Virus record (IMG/VR): IMGVR_UViG_3300020731_000051
Span: 1-32,952 of that record
Length of the DNA: 32,952 nt
From: a virus
Direction: 5' to 3' (one strand)
A program made the translations under genes and the position numbers. The notes below the pieces were generated by a model that was given only the letters and a program-made list of their open reading frames with translations, was not told the DNA's origin and made no database searches. How positions within the stretch are numbered: the first letter of the stretch is position 1; each line of letters starts with the position of its first letter. Below, piece after piece: positions 3,193 to 9,841 of this stretch.

Positions 3193-3671
3193 CCTATGAG
3201 CCACGCATCGGAGACTACGGCTGTGTCAAGACCAACGGATTTTTCGGATGGCTCATCCGTCTCGGAACTTTTAGCCGATGGAACCACTGCTTCATTTACA
3301 TTGGTAATGGAGAAATTATTGGAGCAGATCCACAAGGCGTAAAAAAAAGCCCGCTGTCTAACTACACCAATGTGGCTTGGAACCAGCACGAAGAGTTGAC
3401 AGATAAGCAACGTGACGCGATCTTCTTCTACACTCATCAAGCGCTAGGCAAACCTTACAACTTCTTCACCATTGCCGATCTTGCCCTGCGTATCCTCGGG
3501 CTAAAGATCTTGGCTAACACATGGCTTGCCAAGAAGTTGGCTACAACTCAAGGCTATATCTGCTCTGAGCTTGTATCAGAGGTTTACAAGAAGGCCGGCG
3601 TTGATCTATGCCATAAGGAAGATTACTTGGTAGTACCTGGCGATCTAGCAGAACGGTTGATCTGGCAATGA
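3189..3671 (+). CDS. Permuted NlpC/P60-like (YiiX/YaeF-type) papain-like hydrolase
   Basis: 160 residues. The motif WNHCFIYIG (His33) comes near the N-terminus and QGYICSELV (Cys125) near the C-terminus. This reversed order of catalytic His and Cys is the hallmark of circularly permuted NlpC/P60-superfamily proteins, which act as amidases, peptidases or acyltransferases. No signal peptide is seen. The start ATG 3189 overlaps the previous stop, and the gene ends overlapping the endolysin start by ATGA. The context suggests a cell-wall or membrane-directed role at lysis, possibly a peptidase acting with the amidase next door. The substrate cannot be read from sequence. Confidence 0.75.
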   Translation: MTYEPRIGDYGCVKTNGFFGWLIRLGTFSRWNHCFIYIGNGEIIGADPQGVKKSPLSNYTNVAWNQHEELTDKQRDAIFFYTHQALGKPYNFFTIADLALRILGLKILANTWLAKKLATTQGYICSELVSEVYKKAGVDLCHKEDYLVVPGDLAERLIWQ

Positions 3672-4207
3672 CCTACCCATTGGTACAAGCAAAGCATTAC
3701 ACACCTGGACTAAACAAACGTGAGCCGATCCGACTCATAGTTCTACACAGCGCAGAGAACAACGAACTGCCAGACGCAGCACACAACCTAGCCCTTTGGT
3801 TCGCAGGCCCTACTGCCCCGCAGGCTAGCGCTCACTACATGGTGGACTACAACACCGTCGTCCAGTCTGTAAAGAACGAGGACATTGCGTGGCACTGCGA
3901 TATATGGGACAGGAATGTCGAATCTATTGGCATTGAGCTGACTGGTCGGGCTGCGCAAACCCCTGCCCAGTGGGCGGACAGTTATTCAGAAGGGGTGCTT
4001 AGGCAGGCTACAAGCCTCTGTAAAGGGCTTATGAGCCAATATGGCATACCTGCTACCCATCTGACCTATGAGCAGATCCTAGACGGCAAGACAAAGGGTT
4101 TTTGTACCCACGCCGATATTACCTATGCTCACAAAATTGCCGGTGGTCATACTGACCCTGGCGTTAACTTCCCTATGGTAAACTTTTTGAAGGGCCTAAC
4201 GGCTTAA
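3668..4207 (+). CDS. Endolysin, N-acetylmuramoyl-L-alanine amidase (Amidase_2)
   Basis: 179 residues with the Amidase_2/PGRP fold signature. The motif IRLIVLHSAE holds a first zinc ligand at His27. SAHYMVD lies at about 55-60 and IGIELTG at about 87-93 (Glu90). FCTHADIT (His148) and GGHTDPG (Asp163) supply the other likely zinc ligands. The enzyme would cut the amide bond between MurNAc and L-Ala of peptidoglycan. It consists of the catalytic domain only, with no obvious separate wall-binding domain and no signal peptide, so release would need a holin. Candidates flank it at 2541, 2839 and 4223. ATG 3668 overlaps the preceding stop. Confidence 0.9.
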   Translation: MTYPLVQAKHYTPGLNKREPIRLIVLHSAENNELPDAAHNLALWFAGPTAPQASAHYMVDYNTVVQSVKNEDIAWHCDIWDRNVESIGIELTGRAAQTPAQWADSYSEGVLRQATSLCKGLMSQYGIPATHLTYEQILDGKTKGFCTHADITYAHKIAGGHTDPGVNFPMVNFLKGLTA

Positions 4208-4222
4208 CTTAAAGGAGAACCT

Positions 4223-4411
4223 ATGAAGATCAACAAGACAATCGTTGAGCATTACCTAGCTTCACTTGTAGTCGCATCTGTTGCCATCTGGCAGACAGGT
4301 AACCACCACCTCAAGACAGTTGCTTGGGGAGCATTGGTTGCAGTTCTTGGACCAGTTGCCGTTGGTGCGTATAACCACTTCAAGGCAGTAGCAAACACAA
4401 CAACTAAGTAA
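4223..4411 (+). CDS. Small two-span membrane protein, holin candidate
   Basis: 62 residues from ATG 4223 with a strong AAAGGAG site just upstream. Two hydrophobic stretches (about 12-25 and 31-48) are separated by a short turn with His and Lys residues, and a polar tail follows. Directly after the endolysin and before a terminator, this is a typical position for a phage holin. Whether this protein or those at 2541 and 2839 is the actual holin cannot be decided from sequence. Confidence 0.65.
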   Translation: MKINKTIVEHYLASLVVASVAIWQTGNHHLKTVAWGALVAVLGPVAVGAYNHFKAVANTTTK

Positions 4412-4429
4412 AACTTAATAAGATTAAAG

Positions 4430-4460
4430 GCCCCGCTTAATTGCGGGGCTTATTTTTTTT
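4430..4460 (+). terminator. Intrinsic terminator ending the late and lysis unit
   Basis: Stem GCCCCGC (4430-4436) and GCGGGGC (4443-4449) with loop TTAATT, then a T-rich tract to 4460. It closes the rightward late transcript after the small membrane protein. Confidence 0.9.
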
Positions 4461-4606
4461 TGCTTTTTTGCTTGTGTAATGCTCGCTATCGGCTTTGCCG
4501 CTCGCTGTCGGTGGGCGCTCTGCGCCCCAACCCTTTTACTCGCTCCCGTGCTTACGCTCGTAGTATAACCATAGGCAAAAAATTTCTGCAAAATTGAAAC
4601 ATTAAC
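4461..4606. other. Non-coding spacer with GC-rich hairpins upstream of the early promoter
   Basis: No credible gene. A perfect hairpin GGGCGC-TCT-GCGCCC lies at 4513-4527. The 13-mer GGCGCTCTGCGCC within it recurs with one change at 18021-18033, and ATAACCATAGG (4565-4575) recurs exactly at 18057-18067. The spacer therefore shares elements with the control region upstream of the terminase. An open minus-strand frame here (4424-4798) has no coding character. Confidence 0.5.
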
Positions 4607-4638
4607 TTGACAAGCCATACATACCCCCCTGCTATGAT
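4607..4638 (+). promoter_or_regulatory. Early rightward promoter with a leaderless start
   Basis: TTGACA at 4607-4612 and an extended -10, TGC-TATGAT, with the hexamer at 4633-4638. The spacer is 20 bases, longer than ideal, but the TGN extension can compensate. The ATG at 4645 is only 7 bases past the -10, so transcription would start at or next to the A of the ATG. There is no Shine-Dalgarno sequence. Leaderless mRNAs are common in Actinobacteria. Confidence 0.7.
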
Positions 4639-4644
4639 CCAGCC

Positions 4645-4848
4645 ATGAACATAGAAACAAAAACAACAGTAGGTCACAGGTCGTTTTCCTCGTTTGCTTC
4701 ATGGGTGCGATGCGGTAAAGCATGGCAACTAGAACGCCAGCTGGGTGTAACGACTGCACCAGCTTGGTGGTTTGTCGCCGGCTCTGCGTTCCACTCATCG
4801 GTCGAACGCTGGTTACTAGAATCGCTAAAGCAAAATGACCAAGCCTGA
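4645..4848 (+). CDS. N-terminal fragment of a RecB/Cas4-like PD-(D/E)XK exonuclease
   Basis: 67 residues. The sequence HRSFSSFASWVRCGKAWQ with Cys23, followed by PAWWFVAGSAFHSSVERW, matches the N-terminal module of phage RecB/Cas4-type (PDDEXK_1) exonucleases. It carries the first Cys of the Fe-S cluster and the conserved GxxFH histidine. The nuclease core and the remaining three cysteines are missing here and occur in the frame at 5368-6030. The frame ends within an inserted cassette; its last six residues (after Leu-Lys) are cassette-derived. ATG 4645 is the leaderless start of the early unit. It could be a working half that assembles with the downstream half, or the dead stub of a disrupted gene. 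Confidence 0.7.
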   Translation: MNIETKTTVGHRSFSSFASWVRCGKAWQLERQLGVTTAPAWWFVAGSAFHSSVERWLLESLKQNDQA

Positions 4849-5062
4849 GCCAACGCCTATTAAGAACCTTGTGGTTCTCAAGGGCGATAAGGCGGATTAC
4901 ACATCGCTTGGTCCTATCCGTATCTGCCCATGCGGGTCAGATACATGGCACTTGAAAGTTAAATTTGATGAGGACAACACGATTGGTTTGTACTTCACAG
5001 ATATGCAATGCGTGTTATGCTCCAGCCTCGCACAGGCACCTACACCGGAATGGGGAGAATAA
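4835..5062 (+). CDS. 75-aa zinc-ribbon-like hypothetical protein
   Basis: 75 residues from ATG 4835, which overlaps the end of the truncated exonuclease frame. It contains CPCGS (about 32-36) and CVLC (about 59-62), two cysteine pairs spaced like a small zinc ribbon, with beta-strand-like sequence between them (WHLKVKF, TIGLYFTD). The tail is Pro-rich. It is the first gene of the inserted cassette and ends TAATG on the next start. The function is unknown; nucleic-acid or protein binding is only a guess from the zinc-ribbon pattern. Confidence 0.7.
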   Translation: MTKPEPTPIKNLVVLKGDKADYTSLGPIRICPCGSDTWHLKVKFDEDNTIGLYFTDMQCVLCSSLAQAPTPEWGE

Positions 5063-5187
5063 TGTTTGGCTTATGGATAAGATTTTTAACAGAAATAAAT
5101 CTTTGGTCATCCCGCAAGTTGAATGAGATTTTTGAATGGGATGCAAATGATGTTGACTGGGATGACGAATGTGAGGATTGCGCATAA
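5062..5187 (+). CDS. 41-aa acidic hypothetical protein
   Basis: ATG 5062 overlaps the preceding stop (TAATG) and the frame ends at TAA 5185-5187, again overlapping the next ATG. The N-terminus is hydrophobic (FGLWIRFL) and the C-terminal half is strongly acidic, with a closing CEDC pair. GGGGAG upstream (5052-5057) can serve as the ribosome binding site. No family is recognised. Tight coupling on both sides supports it being real. Confidence 0.6.
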   Translation: MFGLWIRFLTEINLWSSRKLNEIFEWDANDVDWDDECEDCA

Positions 5188-5375
5188 TGGGACAAAAGCG
5201 AGCAAAGATTATTACAAAGGTAGCCTTTGAGAAGGCATTTGTAGAGGCAGAGATTATGATGCGCAAAGCTCTTGGCGACATGATTGCCAAGGAGATTTTG
5301 ACAGAGACTAACCCAGCAACTATCGTTGGCCTAAAGCGAGCGCAAGAAATAGTGATTGGCCAAAAGGTTGAGTAA
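5187..5375 (+). CDS. 62-aa helical hypothetical protein
   Basis: ATG 5187 is chosen because it overlaps the previous stop (TAATG); a TTG at 5178 would add three residues. The product is charged and mostly helical (KVAFEKAFVEAEIMMRKAL and similar), with no Cys and no membrane span. The motif TNPATIVGLKRAQEIVIGQ near the end resembles small phage proteins that sit beside exonucleases, but I cannot name a family. Its last codons overlap the TTG start of the exonuclease C-half. Confidence 0.6.
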   Translation: MGQKRAKIITKVAFEKAFVEAEIMMRKALGDMIAKEILTETNPATIVGLKRAQEIVIGQKVE

Positions 5376-6030
5376 TCTAAAAGAGATTTGGGAACATGCG
5401 TTCCTATCTGAGATTGGCGTTGTTGAGCAACGCACCGGCACTAACCCAGTTGACTGGCGTGTGGGCGGTCGTGCATCTAAAGCCAACCCAGATAAAGAGA
5501 ACAAGGCTTGGTGGGACGAGAATGGTCTTCGCATGTTCGAGGACTTTGTTACCGCCTTTACCAACAACAAGTGGAAAGTCTGGATTGCGCCAGATGGCGT
5601 ACCAGGTGTTGAAATGGAATTTAATGTTCACTTTGGCGATGTGCTTATCAAAGCCTTTGCCGATCTGATCCTTGAGAATGAGGATGGATCGCTCACAGTA
5701 GTGGACTTAAAGACCGGTGCCTACACACCAGACTCAGCCATGCAGCTGGGTGTGTACGCATCCTGCATTGAGTCTGTCTATAGCGTTCGCCCGCAGTACG
5801 GTGCATATTACAAAGCCCGTGATGCAATGCTTCAGCCTAGCCCAGGACTTGAACTATGGACTATCCCCGTGCTGACCGAGATGTTTGCTCAGTTCGAGCG
5901 TGGTCTACAGGCAGAGATTTTTCTACCTAATATCAATATGATGTGCGGATCTTGTGGCGTAAAGGATTATTGCCATGCTCTTGGTGGTAGTCTTGCCCAT
6001 ACCGTTGATCCACTGGCACAATTAAAATAA
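5368..6030 (+). CDS. C-terminal catalytic part of a RecB/Cas4-like PD-(D/E)XK exonuclease
   Basis: About 220 residues from TTG 5368, which overlaps the upstream stop; TTG 5356 is the alternative, and no ATG occurs before residue 56. The nuclease core is complete: Asp99 (KAFADLIL), Asp113 and Lys115 (VVDLKTG), and Gln126 in QLGVYA. It is followed by CGSCGVKDYC (Cys193, 196, 202), the C-terminal cysteines of an AddB/Cas4-type Fe-S cluster. The fourth Cys is in the separate N-terminal ORF at 4645-4848. RVGGRASKANPDKENKAWW is typical of actinophage exonucleases. Expected role: end resection and recombination with the neighbouring ATPase. It could be active as a two-chain enzyme or impaired by the split. 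Confidence 0.8.
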   Translation: MSNLKEIWEHAFLSEIGVVEQRTGTNPVDWRVGGRASKANPDKENKAWWDENGLRMFEDFVTAFTNNKWKVWIAPDGVPGVEMEFNVHFGDVLIKAFADLILENEDGSLTVVDLKTGAYTPDSAMQLGVYASCIESVYSVRPQYGAYYKARDAMLQPSPGLELWTIPVLTEMFAQFERGLQAEIFLPNINMMCGSCGVKDYCHALGGSLAHTVDPLAQLK

Positions 6031-6067
6031 GTTTATACAACCAAACACACAAACAAGGAGAAAGAAA

Positions 6068-6481
6068 ATGGCAGCAAATAACAACGATACAAAGCTCCAA
6101 GTCAACTTCAAGTTGTCTGACGGAACTTTGATTAACCTCTACGCTAACTCACAAAAGGAACTTGAAGAGCAACTTCAGTCCATTGCTGATCTAGCAAACC
6201 TTATCCTGCTTACCGGTGGCGATCTATCCAAGGGTGCAAATGTTGCATACGCAACCAAATCACTTGGACTTACACCGGTGGAAGATGATGCACCAGCCTG
6301 GGCTGCTAAGTCAGCATCACCAGCACCTGCTGCTCCTGCTGGAGCAAGCAACACTTGTAAGCATGGCGAGATGATTTTCCGTCAAGGAGTAAGTGAGAAG
6401 ACTGGTAAGCCTTGGAAGGGTTACTTCTGCCCTTCACCAAAGGGTACGCCAGATCAGTGCTCAGCTAACTTCGTACGATAA
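6068..6481 (+). CDS. Zn-finger protein, ssDNA-binding or recombination accessory candidate
   Basis: 137 residues from ATG 6068 with a strong AAGGAG site. The N-terminal half (1-70) looks like a small beta and helix domain (LQVNFKLSDGTLINLY, then a helix). A Pro/Ala linker (about 76-93) follows, and the C-terminal module has Cys97, His99, Cys121 and Cys131 in KHGEMIFRQG..GYFCPSPKG..C, a zinc-finger layout. It sits between the exonuclease and the RecA-like ATPase, the position of an ssDNA-binding or recombination mediator protein in many actinophages. That function is inferred from context. Confidence 0.65.
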   Translation: MAANNNDTKLQVNFKLSDGTLINLYANSQKELEEQLQSIADLANLILLTGGDLSKGANVAYATKSLGLTPVEDDAPAWAAKSASPAPAAPAGASNTCKHGEMIFRQGVSEKTGKPWKGYFCPSPKGTPDQCSANFVR

Positions 6482-7449: not shown

Positions 7450-7811
7450 GTACCTATGGCAAGCGCAAAGGTTCTAAGTTTGAGACAGATGTTCTTGGGT
7501 GGTTAAGGGGAAGACTACCCAAGGCAATGACAGAAAGGCTTGCCCTCGCGGGGGCTAATGACGAGGGTGATTTAGTCCTTATCGTTGCGGGCAAGCCTTA
7601 TGTCTTTGAGTTGAAGGCAAGAGCCAAGTTGGATCTGCCACAGTTCTGGCGTGAAGCGGTAGTCGAAGCACAGAACTATGCCAAAGCTCGCAATCTTACT
7701 GAAGTTCCCCCATCGTATGTGATTGTCAAGCGCAGAAGCGCCGGCATTGAAGATGCGTGGGTCATCCAAACACTAGACCAATGGGCAAGGATCCATGATG
7801 ACCAAGCCTGA
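7446..7811 (+). CDS. PD-(D/E)XK nuclease, Holliday junction resolvase-like
   Basis: 121 residues. The order of motifs fits archaeal Hjc-like and phage resolvases: GSKFETDVLGWLR (Glu13), NDEGDLVL (Asp42), YVFELKARAKLDL (Glu55-x-Lys57) and a following helix with EAQNY (Gln76). It would cleave branched DNA arising in replication or recombination, or act as a general endonuclease. The start ATG 7446 overlaps the previous stop. The gene lies in the replication block between the ATPase and the primase. Confidence 0.8.
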   Translation: MSTYGKRKGSKFETDVLGWLRGRLPKAMTERLALAGANDEGDLVLIVAGKPYVFELKARAKLDLPQFWREAVVEAQNYAKARNLTEVPPSYVIVKRRSAGIEDAWVIQTLDQWARIHDDQA

Positions 7812-8166
7812 TCTTGGAGCAATACTCGAAGCGTATGGATTGAATGTATCGGCGCGGTATGGCTGGGTGCCATGCAAGTGTGTAGTGCATGACGATAGCC
7901 ATGCCAGTGCCGCATATAACTTAGACAAGCAACAGTACAACTGTCTTGTTTGCCAATTACTTGGCGATGTGTATGATCTGGTCGCCCGTAAAGAAAACTT
8001 AAAGGAGTTTACCGATGTTAAACGCAGAGCAGAAAGCCTTGCTAACGGAAGCAGCGCAAAGGTACGCGGACCACATAGAGCCGCAGGCTCTGTCCTACCT
8101 ACAGGAGCGCGGAATAAGCCCGCAGGTGGCAAGTACCTACCAGCTTGGAAGCGTGGTAGAGCCTAG
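7798..8166 (+). CDS. Primase zinc-binding (CHC2-like) ORF
   Basis: 122 residues from ATG 7798, chosen over ATG 7795 because AAGGA (7787-7791) is better spaced. VPCKCVVHDDSHASAAYN with Cys26, Cys28 and His31, then YNCLVC with Cys49 and Cys52, matches the CHC2 zinc ribbon of DnaG-type primases, which recognises template DNA. The TOPRIM catalytic part is a separate ORF starting at 8015 in another frame, so the last 152 bases are read in two frames. The tail (GKYLPAWKRGRA) is basic. The protein probably works in trans with the TOPRIM chain. Confidence 0.8.
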   Translation: MTKPDLGAILEAYGLNVSARYGWVPCKCVVHDDSHASAAYNLDKQQYNCLVCQLLGDVYDLVARKENLKEFTDVKRRAESLANGSSAKVRGPHRAAGSVLPTGARNKPAGGKYLPAWKRGRA

Positions 8167-8650
8167 TGTTGGTCATGAGCATGCTGTGGGCATGCTTAGT
8201 ATTCCTTATCGCACTCCTTCTGGAGTGGTTGGAATAAAGTTTCGCCGGATTGATGGCGGTACACCGAAGTACCTATGGCCAACAGGTCAAAAGATTGGAC
8301 TATTTAATGTGCAAGACTTGCATAAATCATCAAACACAATCGCTATCTGCGAGGGAGAGATTGACACAATCATTCTTTCTGGGTGTGTTGGTATTCCTAG
8401 CGTGGGCGTGGCTGGTGTTAGCCAATGGAAAGCGCACTTTCCTAAACTCTTTGAGCCGTATACGAAAGTCTTAATCTTTGCTGATAACGACGTGAAGGAA
8501 GATGGTCGTAACCCAGGACAAGAGCTGGCCAAGCGGATCAAGGAAGATCTGCCAGCTGCCATCGTGGTGGGTCTGCCAGGCAATGAGGATGTGAATGATC
8601 TATACTTGCATTATGGCAAAGAGTGGTTTGATGAACGGATCGCAGCATGA
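8015..8650 (+). CDS. TOPRIM primase catalytic ORF
   Basis: 211 residues from ATG 8015, with AAAGGAG at about 8000-8006. The TOPRIM core is visible: ICEGEIDTI (Glu113, Asp117) and LIFADND (Asp157, Asp159), the acidic metal-binding residues of DnaG-type primases. Upstream lie a helical part (1-45) and the strand-rich linker found in phage primases (IPYRTPSGVVGIKFRR). It lacks a zinc domain, which the overlapping upstream ORF supplies. With the RecA-like ATPase it makes a minimal primase and helicase set. The stop overlaps the methyltransferase ATG (ATGA). Confidence 0.85.
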   Translation: MLNAEQKALLTEAAQRYADHIEPQALSYLQERGISPQVASTYQLGSVVEPSVGHEHAVGMLSIPYRTPSGVVGIKFRRIDGGTPKYLWPTGQKIGLFNVQDLHKSSNTIAICEGEIDTIILSGCVGIPSVGVAGVSQWKAHFPKLFEPYTKVLIFADNDVKEDGRNPGQELAKRIKEDLPAAIVVGLPGNEDVNDLYLHYGKEWFDERIAA

Positions 8651-9465
8651 GTACATTCGTTAGTTTGTTTGCTGGCGTTGGTGGTTTTGATCTTGGACTT
8701 GAACGATCAGGTCACACATGCGTTGGTCAAGTGGAAATTGACAAGCATGCACAAAAGATTTTGAAGAAGCATTGGCCTGATGTACCGATGCATGATGATG
8801 TAACTACTGCTGTTGAATGGGCAAAGGAGATTGATTTAATTGGACGAGTTGACATTGTTTGCGGGGGCTTTCCCTGCCAAGATGTATCCGTTGCTGGCAA
8901 ACGTGCTGGAGCAGGAGCTGGGACACGAAGTGGATTATTCTGGGACGCTATACGATTTGCGCAAGAAGTTAAAGCAAAAACAATCCTCTTGGAAAATGTC
9001 CCAGGACTTTTATCAAGCAACCAAGGACGCGATTTTGGAACAGTCCTCACTACATTGGCCGACGCAGGGTATAGCCACATCGAGTGGAGAATTTTGGACA
9101 GCCAATACTTTGGAGTACCCCAACGCCGTCGTCGAGTCTTCATTGTCGGAAGTGTTACAGACAGAAGCGCCAACCCGATATTCATTGAGCGCAAAAGCAG
9201 CCGAGGGGATACTACGCAGAGCCAACAAGCGGGGCAAGACTTTACCAGAAGCGCTACAAAAAGCGCTAGAAAAAGTAGCCCAAGCGTAGGCAACTTTGAA
9301 TTGTATGACTTTCCCGCTGAGGATGTTGCACCAACTCTAAGTGCTATGCGCACTAGAGACATGATGGCATTTGGTCAGACAAGTTTTGCTGGCTATTCCA
9401 ATGGCGTAACCACTCTTACAGCTACATCCTACAAGCGACCAGAAGACAATGTTGTGGTTCACTAA
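8647..9465 (+). CDS. C5 cytosine DNA methyltransferase, catalytic part (split gene)
   Basis: 272 residues. Motif I is FAGVGGFD (8-15), motif II VEID (29-32), motif IV GGFPCQDV with catalytic Cys77, motif VI ENV (116-118) and motif VIII QRRRRVF (159-165). A target-recognition region follows. The frame then stops at TAA 9463-9465 before motifs IX and X, which are in the +1 frame at 9449-9841. It would methylate cytosine C5 in phage DNA, presumably protecting it from host restriction. It is either a natural two-chain enzyme like M.AquI or a frameshifted gene. The part at about 9167-9290 has Ser/Arg/Gln-rich wording and is overprinted by another good frame. Confidence 0.88.
   Translation: MSTFVSLFAGVGGFDLGLERSGHTCVGQVEIDKHAQKILKKHWPDVPMHDDVTTAVEWAKEIDLIGRVDIVCGGFPCQDVSVAGKRAGAGAGTRSGLFWDAIRFAQEVKAKTILLENVPGLLSSNQGRDFGTVLTTLADAGYSHIEWRILDSQYFGVPQRRRRVFIVGSVTDRSANPIFIERKSSRGDTTQSQQAGQDFTRSATKSARKSSPSVGNFELYDFPAEDVAPTLSAMRTRDMMAFGQTSFAGYSNGVTTLTATSYKRPEDNVVVH
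8882..9289 (+). CDS. Putative overprinted ORF inside the methyltransferase gene
   Basis: An open frame of 135 residues in the +1 frame relative to the methyltransferase, from ATG 8882 (TTG 8840 gives 149 residues). Unlike ordinary shadow frames it looks protein-like: helical LRKKLKQKQSSWKMSQ, then WPTQGI, NTLEYPN, SSLSEVL and a closing KAAEGILRRANKRGKTLP helix. I recall phage proteins near C5 methyltransferases ending in a similar K-A-C-x-GILRRAxKRGK-x-LP motif, but cannot verify this here. No ribosome binding site is evident. It could be a genuine dual-coding gene, or a shadow made regular by conserved methyltransferase motifs. Confidence 0.4.
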   Translation: MYPLLANVLEQELGHEVDYSGTLYDLRKKLKQKQSSWKMSQDFYQATKDAILEQSSLHWPTQGIATSSGEFWTANTLEYPNAVVESSLSEVLQTEAPTRYSLSAKAAEGILRRANKRGKTLPEALQKALEKVAQA

Positions 9466-9841
9466 AGGTCGCAGAGCGCAAAGCGTTGACGATTATGAAA
9501 CATGGATAGCGGGGGGGGTAATGCCTACATTGAACGCATTTGATAACGGCGATGTTCGCACGACTATTCTCATCATAGACGGCACCCGCGTGAACGATGT
9601 ACGAGTGTATGATGATCCTATTATTCAGACAGTTATATCCAGATGGGGAACAGGTGGTGGCAACGTGCCAGCAATTCAACAAGAAGGTACTGTAGTGCGC
9701 CGACTTACTCCAGTAGAGACTGAACGCTTGCAGGGCTTTCCAGATAACTGGACAGATGGGCAAGCTGATAGTCATCGGTATAAGCAGATGGGTAACGCAG
9801 TTACTGTCAATGTTATTGAATGGATTGGCGCTCGACTGTGA
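9449..9841 (+). CDS. C5 cytosine methyltransferase, C-terminal part (motifs IX and X)
   Basis: 130 residues in the +1 frame relative to the catalytic part, overlapping it by 17 bases. RRLTPVETERLQGFPDNW (84-101) is motif IX and QMGNAV (113-118) is motif X of C5 methyltransferases. Read together with 8647-9465 it completes a normal methyltransferase of about 400 residues. ATG 9449 could be its own start, with only a weak upstream AGAAG. Otherwise the chain would need a +1 frameshift near 9449-9463, or the base count there is wrong. It ends overlapping the GTG of the Ntn hydrolase gene. Confidence 0.8.
   Translation: MLWFTKGRRAQSVDDYETWIAGGVMPTLNAFDNGDVRTTILIIDGTRVNDVRVYDDPIIQTVISRWGTGGGNVPAIQQEGTVVRRLTPVETERLQGFPDNWTDGQADSHRYKQMGNAVTVNVIEWIGARL

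Follow-up and report, generated by a model that had tools for sequence, protein, structure and literature searches.

A RecB/Cas4-family exonuclease encoded by two genes, with small genes between them, in aquatic actinophages

The exonuclease encoded by IMG/VR virus record IMGVR_UViG_3300020731_000051 (32,952 bp; this whole stretch is the window analyzed here) is in two pieces. As the original prediction had proposed, an N-half at 4645-4848 and a C-half at 5368-6030 both match profiles of the RecB/Cas4 family, and three small genes, designated sA, sB and sC, lie between them. The two-gene arrangement is conserved among related phages, many of which have nothing between the halves. We consider it likely that an ancient gene fission gave rise to two co-translated subunits, which would form one nuclease with an inter-chain [4Fe-4S] cluster, and that small genes entered the junction later. 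The features of the locus are listed here.

4633..4638, + strand: -10-type element TATGAT, 6 nt before the N-half ATG
4645..4848, + strand: N-half, putative subunit (67 aa) of a RecB/Cas4-family exonuclease, with Fe-S Cys23 and GxAFH His50
4835..5062, + strand: sA, a four-cysteine protein (CPCG...CxxC, zinc-ribbon-like), with a 14-nt overlap with the N-half end
5062..5187, + strand: sB, acidic, 41 aa, with a TAATG overlap with sA; a replaceable slot
5187..5375, + strand: sC, predicted helical, 62 aa, with a TAATG overlap with sB
5368..6030, + strand: C-half, putative subunit (220 aa) with the PD-(D/E)XK core (D, DxK, QxxxY) and three Fe-S cysteines

All five genes (N-half, sA, sB, sC and C-half) overlap their neighbors, and the sC stop and C-half start read TTGAGTAA. 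Since start and stop codons overlap along the operon, co-translation of the products would be expected. The C-half ORF opens at 5356, where there is an in-frame TTG; a second TTG, at 5368, is the likely start. The window has no ATG close to the C-half start, whereas most relatives use an ATG here, just ahead of a conserved TGG. Both halves of the window are in the same frame, and 15 in-frame stops separate the two ORFs. A profile search of the near neighborhood identified an L5 gp49-like protein and a DnaB-like helicase downstream of the exonuclease genes. The same search revealed no cas1 or cas2 beside the exonuclease, which is therefore not classed as a CRISPR-associated Cas4.

All 81 distinct window-type upstream sequences have TANNNT at exactly -12 of the N-half ATG, whereas in the background it occurs in 17 of 243 seven-offset windows. 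TTGACA is present at 4607-4612, 20 nt upstream of TATGAT, a long spacing for a -35 element. The conserved -10 element suggests a promoter, from which a leaderless transcript would begin at the N-half. Just ahead of the operon, at 4424-4460, a run of T follows an inverted repeat rich in G+C, an arrangement that is terminator-like by eye.

The family assignment of each half was examined by profile comparison. The N-half matched PHROG_69 (exonuclease; E = 1.9e-9) and PHROG_1870 (E = 4e-7), and its similarity to PF12705 (E = 0.013) was below the cut-off. The C-half matched PHROG_1870 (E = 1.9e-36) and PF12705 (E = 2e-10). Matches to PF12705 and PHROG_1870 are those expected of a RecB/Cas4-like [4Fe-4S] exonuclease, and the characteristic residues (GxxxH, D, (D/E)xK, QxxxY and four cysteines, one N-terminal and three C-terminal) are all present, distributed across two ORFs rather than carried by the single polypeptide typical of such enzymes. 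The predicted N-terminal Cys and GxxFH module at 4645-4848 and the nuclease core with three cysteines at 5368-6030 were thus both borne out by PHROG and Pfam matches. In the Cas4 family the four cysteines bind an Fe-S cluster (PMC4625639, citing Cas4 structures); with one cysteine in the N-half and three in the C-half, the residues of this site lie on two chains, as the original prediction anticipated.

These residues are retained almost without exception. Among 196 distinct split pairs, the N-half cysteine was kept in 196 and the GxxFH histidine in 195; in the C-half, D, D, K, Q and Y were each kept in all 196, and the three cysteines in 196, 196 and 195. Pooled dN/dS values for window-type relatives were 0.13 for the N-half, 0.136 for the C-half, 0.135 for sA and 0.118 for sC. 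By this measure, N-half and C-half are under similar purifying selection.

In a first set of 80 related viral contigs, every contig with both halves was split, and sA, and mostly sC, was recognized between them. The same gene order was obtained in two further scans, one started from sA, with 80 of its 138 loci kept, and one from sC, with 80 of 119 kept. Altogether the order N-half, sA, sC, C-half was observed in at least 208 loci, 117 of which are distinct by the DNA of both halves. In these 117 relatives the frame offset of the C-half to the N-half is 0 in 30, 1 in 45 and 2 in 42, and the spacer between the halves ranges from about 360 to more than 800 nt among relatives. In most relatives the N-half has its own C-terminal tail, often ending in PF.

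The small genes themselves resemble little that is cataloged. sA had no Pfam match and an insignificant PHROG match (E = 0.23), sB and sC had no family match in Pfam or PHROG, and a tblastn comparison of sA and sC with isolated phages gave no match. It had been noted that the insert lacks a transposase or homing gene, and we agree. In the window clade sA stays between the halves and sC stays next to the C-half, while sB is found in only some relatives and is elsewhere absent or replaced. We also considered that the same small genes might always stand outside the exonuclease in related phages. In the scans started from sA and sC, they lay between the halves wherever a locus bore both. One distant sA-like four-cysteine protein is encoded outside the halves, upstream of the N-half (L543, 1276-1482).

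Relatives without the segment were sought and found, and the nearest of them are still two overlapping ORFs. In OX376641 (Caudovirales sp. ct2KA10; LanE43-AprF5; 38,889 bp) the halves overlap with nothing between. Its name and length agree with those of the cultured Planktophila phage LanE43AprF5 (38.9 kbp), which in culture infects its host and lyses it (PMC10202952); the main text of that paper does not mention an exonuclease. Of the 66 distinct loci in the LanE43AprF5-like clade, 63 have halves that overlap by a few bases, and the remaining three carry other genes. A scan with the most divergent window-type sequences as queries recovered both overlapping, insert-free halves (L442, L449, L458, L462 and L466) and an arrangement with sA alone between the halves (L445, L447, L460, L463 and L464). 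A wider scan added further lineages with overlapping halves, in other frames, as well as intact single-ORF relatives (L488-L534). That many related phages have the split without an insert indicates that the small genes entered an existing junction. Fission thus came first and the small genes later.

The junction has also been loaded several times. It is occupied by a protein with an SLT domain in L543 (1852-2202), by an unrecognized 114-aa protein in L514 (3127-3471), by a protein with a DUF7574 match in L120 (3045-4017) and by a hydrophobic 64-aa protein in L495 (793-987). Because unrelated genes separate the halves in these other phage lineages, the junction is a recurrent landing place. A first scan of bacterial genomes, with the window-clade profile, revealed no relative; the second revealed only L544, a Phytoactinopolyspora halophila contig in which about 1.9 kb, containing several small ORFs, separates the N-half (1357-1557) from the C-half (3489-4133). 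This split exonuclease in an actinobacterial genome is probably that of a prophage. At about position 2251 of L525, unlike in its sister loci, the two halves are in the same frame with a single stop between them, which reflects either an error in sequencing or a re-fusion under way.

The original prediction offered two readings of the locus, a split enzyme or a new kind of cassette insertion, and only the former has held up. In its full form the latter would mean that a recent mobile 552-bp cassette of three genes interrupts one gene, and that the exonuclease is restored when the DNA is excised, or the RNA spliced, between the CTAAA repeats. The window does have its halves in one frame and CTAAA at 4825 and 5377, in frame and 552 bases apart, exactly as described. 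If removal of one unit restored the gene, a constant frame would be anticipated among relatives, and this is not what was observed: because the relatives cover all three frames, frame-preserving excision or splicing is not a property of the locus. The split is more than chance; judging from these comparisons, neither the agreement in frame nor the CTAAA repeat is, and the window is just one of the in-frame cases. CTAAA is frequent in the window, with 40 occurrences (68.6 expected), and occurs also at 5331 and 5477, making four in this stretch. The three genes do not behave as a unit, given the variable spacer length and the replaceable middle gene; each half is delimited by a start and a stop of its own; and the split exists in relatives without any insert. 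A self-splicing intron is opposed by a scan of 4400-6100, which gave no meaningful Rfam match in the spacer, intron families included, even at a permissive E-value, and by the nearest insert-free relatives, which are two overlapping ORFs and not one uninterrupted gene. We regard excision or splicing of a cassette as refuted by the frame data as a general mechanism, and as scarcely credible overall. Still less can be said for a frameshift or assembly error in metagenome contigs, to which we give practically no weight. Most loci are metagenomic, and a few contigs (L057 and L071) do look frame-shifted, but hundreds of independent contigs show the arrangement, as does the genome of a bacterial isolate, and since a cultured lytic phage, LanE43AprF5, has the split, it is not an assembly artifact.

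A single chain might instead still be produced if ribosomes crossed the junction by programmed +1 frameshifting or by bypassing. The +1 relation seen in 64 of 66 distinct loci of the LanE43AprF5-like clade, and likewise in the L442-L466 group, is what this would require, and programmed frameshifting could make some fused product in compact relatives. Other compact lineages, however, are in another frame, or in frame but with a stop codon separating the halves; the overlaps resemble ordinary start-stop overlaps (e.g., ATGNNTGA); and the halves of the window clade are separated by three genes and many stops, so we judge this route highly improbable. It is also quite unlikely that the halves no longer cooperate, one of them having been repurposed in the manner of TP1 of the archaeal virus TTV1. 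There is a precedent in that split Cas4, which became a nucleocapsid protein (PMC4625639), yet TP1 lost its catalytic residues, whereas here the Fe-S and catalytic positions are kept in 195 to 196 of 196 pairs, selection on the halves is equal and gene order is retained. A further variant accepts an obligate two-chain nuclease whose inter-chain [4Fe-4S] cluster joins the subunits, and adds that sA (with sC) delivers or protects the cluster or regulates assembly. If true, such a role would explain why both genes stay between the halves throughout the window clade; we rate it as rather doubtful.

In order to determine the history of the split, trees were built from two sets of sequences. In a 35-sequence tree, all split enzymes fell on one side and the classical intact phage enzymes on the other (100/100). 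When the newly found intact group was added, the resulting 52-sequence tree required a minimum of three changes between split and intact, and a tree with all splits together was not rejected (AU p 0.16). The arrangement with sA and sC formed one clade (100/96) in the 52-sequence tree. These trees are compatible both with one fission followed by re-fusions and with two to three fissions at one place. The split is probably old in this phage group.

Structure models were made of both halves in one chain by translating across the spacer and replacing each stop with Gly, and the alignment for modeling used read-through rows of in-frame relatives. With split relatives only, the pTM was 0.53. With intact relatives added it was 0.64; most N-half blocks then had pLDDT values of 86-97 and most C-half blocks 85-98, and the spacer was mostly below 50. 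Foldseek comparison of both models with the PDB retrieved members of the RecB/Cas4 nuclease group, namely the Cas4-family nuclease ACE1, AdnAB, Dna2, Cas4, AddAB, MGME1 and EXO5, with modest TM-scores (0.47 of the best target), and a profile search of PDB sequences retrieved AdnAB, ACE1 and SSO0001. Because the halves were forced into one chain and intact homologs entered the second model, these models speak for compatibility with one fold and not for assembly. Alignment to intact relatives, which had been suggested as a means of mapping the junction, showed that the N-half and C-half together align with them end to end, and placed the break in the loop that connects the GxxFH helix to the following one.

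The nearest known counterparts are the Cas4-family exonucleases of actinobacteriophages (PHROG_1870 / PHROG_69), such as Rhodococcus phage Espica gp57 and Gordonia phage MinecraftSteve gp82. These have the same residues, occupy the same place just before a DnaB-like helicase and align end to end with the window enzyme; they are one polypeptide, whereas the window enzyme is two with genes between. The best fold matches of the joined halves, the Argonaute-associated Cas4-family nuclease ACE1 (PDB 9iab, 9iac), AdnAB and Cas4 SSO0001 (4ic1), are also single-chain nuclease domains, unlike the window enzyme, and given the modest TM-scores the likeness is in fold alone. A split viral Cas4 is already known. 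In Thermoproteus tenax virus 1 (TTV1) a Cas4-like gene is split as TP1 and gp7, with the break within the QhxxY motif and loss of catalytic residues, and TP1 is a nucleocapsid protein (PMC4625639). As in TTV1, the first cysteine is on the first ORF and three are on the second; unlike in TTV1, the window break lies after GxxFH and no catalytic residue is lost (D, DxK, Q and Y are invariant). In the open-access literature, no description of the present two-gene exonuclease was found, and TTV1 was the only case retrieved of a split viral Cas4/RecB enzyme. The enzyme family is likewise known; what is new is a break site differing from that of TTV1, with all residues kept. One fold built from two encoded chains, as proposed here, has a parallel in the two-subunit C5 methyltransferases M.AquI and M.EcoHK31I (PMC3404938), which are an unrelated enzyme without an Fe-S cluster, unlike the window exonuclease.

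The window itself contains a second two-piece enzyme, a C5 cytosine DNA methyltransferase, whose N and C parts (8647-9465 [+], PF00145, 7.6e-54; 9449-9841 [+], PF00145, 6.7e-15) overlap in different frames. It is also in two ORFs in the five relatives checked (L030, L033, L054, L055 and L469), and two-subunit C5 methyltransferases such as M.AquI are already known (PMC3404938). The primase of the window is in two ORFs as well, 7795-8166 and 8015-8650 (+), encoding a CHC2 zinc-ribbon protein and a Toprim protein. Two-ORF primases are known in mycobacteriophages.

We propose that a RecB/Cas4-family exonuclease gene of aquatic actinophages broke, probably long ago, at the loop after the GxxFH helix, leaving two separately translated genes in one operon. 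The N-half would supply the first Fe-S cysteine and the metal-site histidine, and the C-half D, DxK, Q and the other three cysteines. The two chains would then assemble into one nuclease, in which the [4Fe-4S] cluster and the metal site would each span both chains. Once it was an ordinary gene boundary, the junction would have been entered repeatedly by unrelated small genes, in the lineage of the window by sA and later by sC, with one slot whose gene is replaceable. Because intact actinophage exonucleases also have the DnaB-like helicase as a neighbor, the enzyme likely takes part in the replication or recombination of phage DNA.

Two points concern annotation: an N-half of 61-67 aa is easily missed, and in the collection searched the record of the cultured phage LanE43AprF5 is without gene annotation. 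The series from intact genes through overlapping halves to halves with one or several genes between them is a record of how phage genes are broken and loaded. For the enzyme family, the locus is a widespread natural case of an Fe-S nuclease broken at a single, defined position. Because catalytic and cluster residues are retained in both pieces, these phages provide a ready system for testing whether a [4Fe-4S] cluster can form between two chains of the RecB/Cas4 fold, and whether activity is controlled by it.
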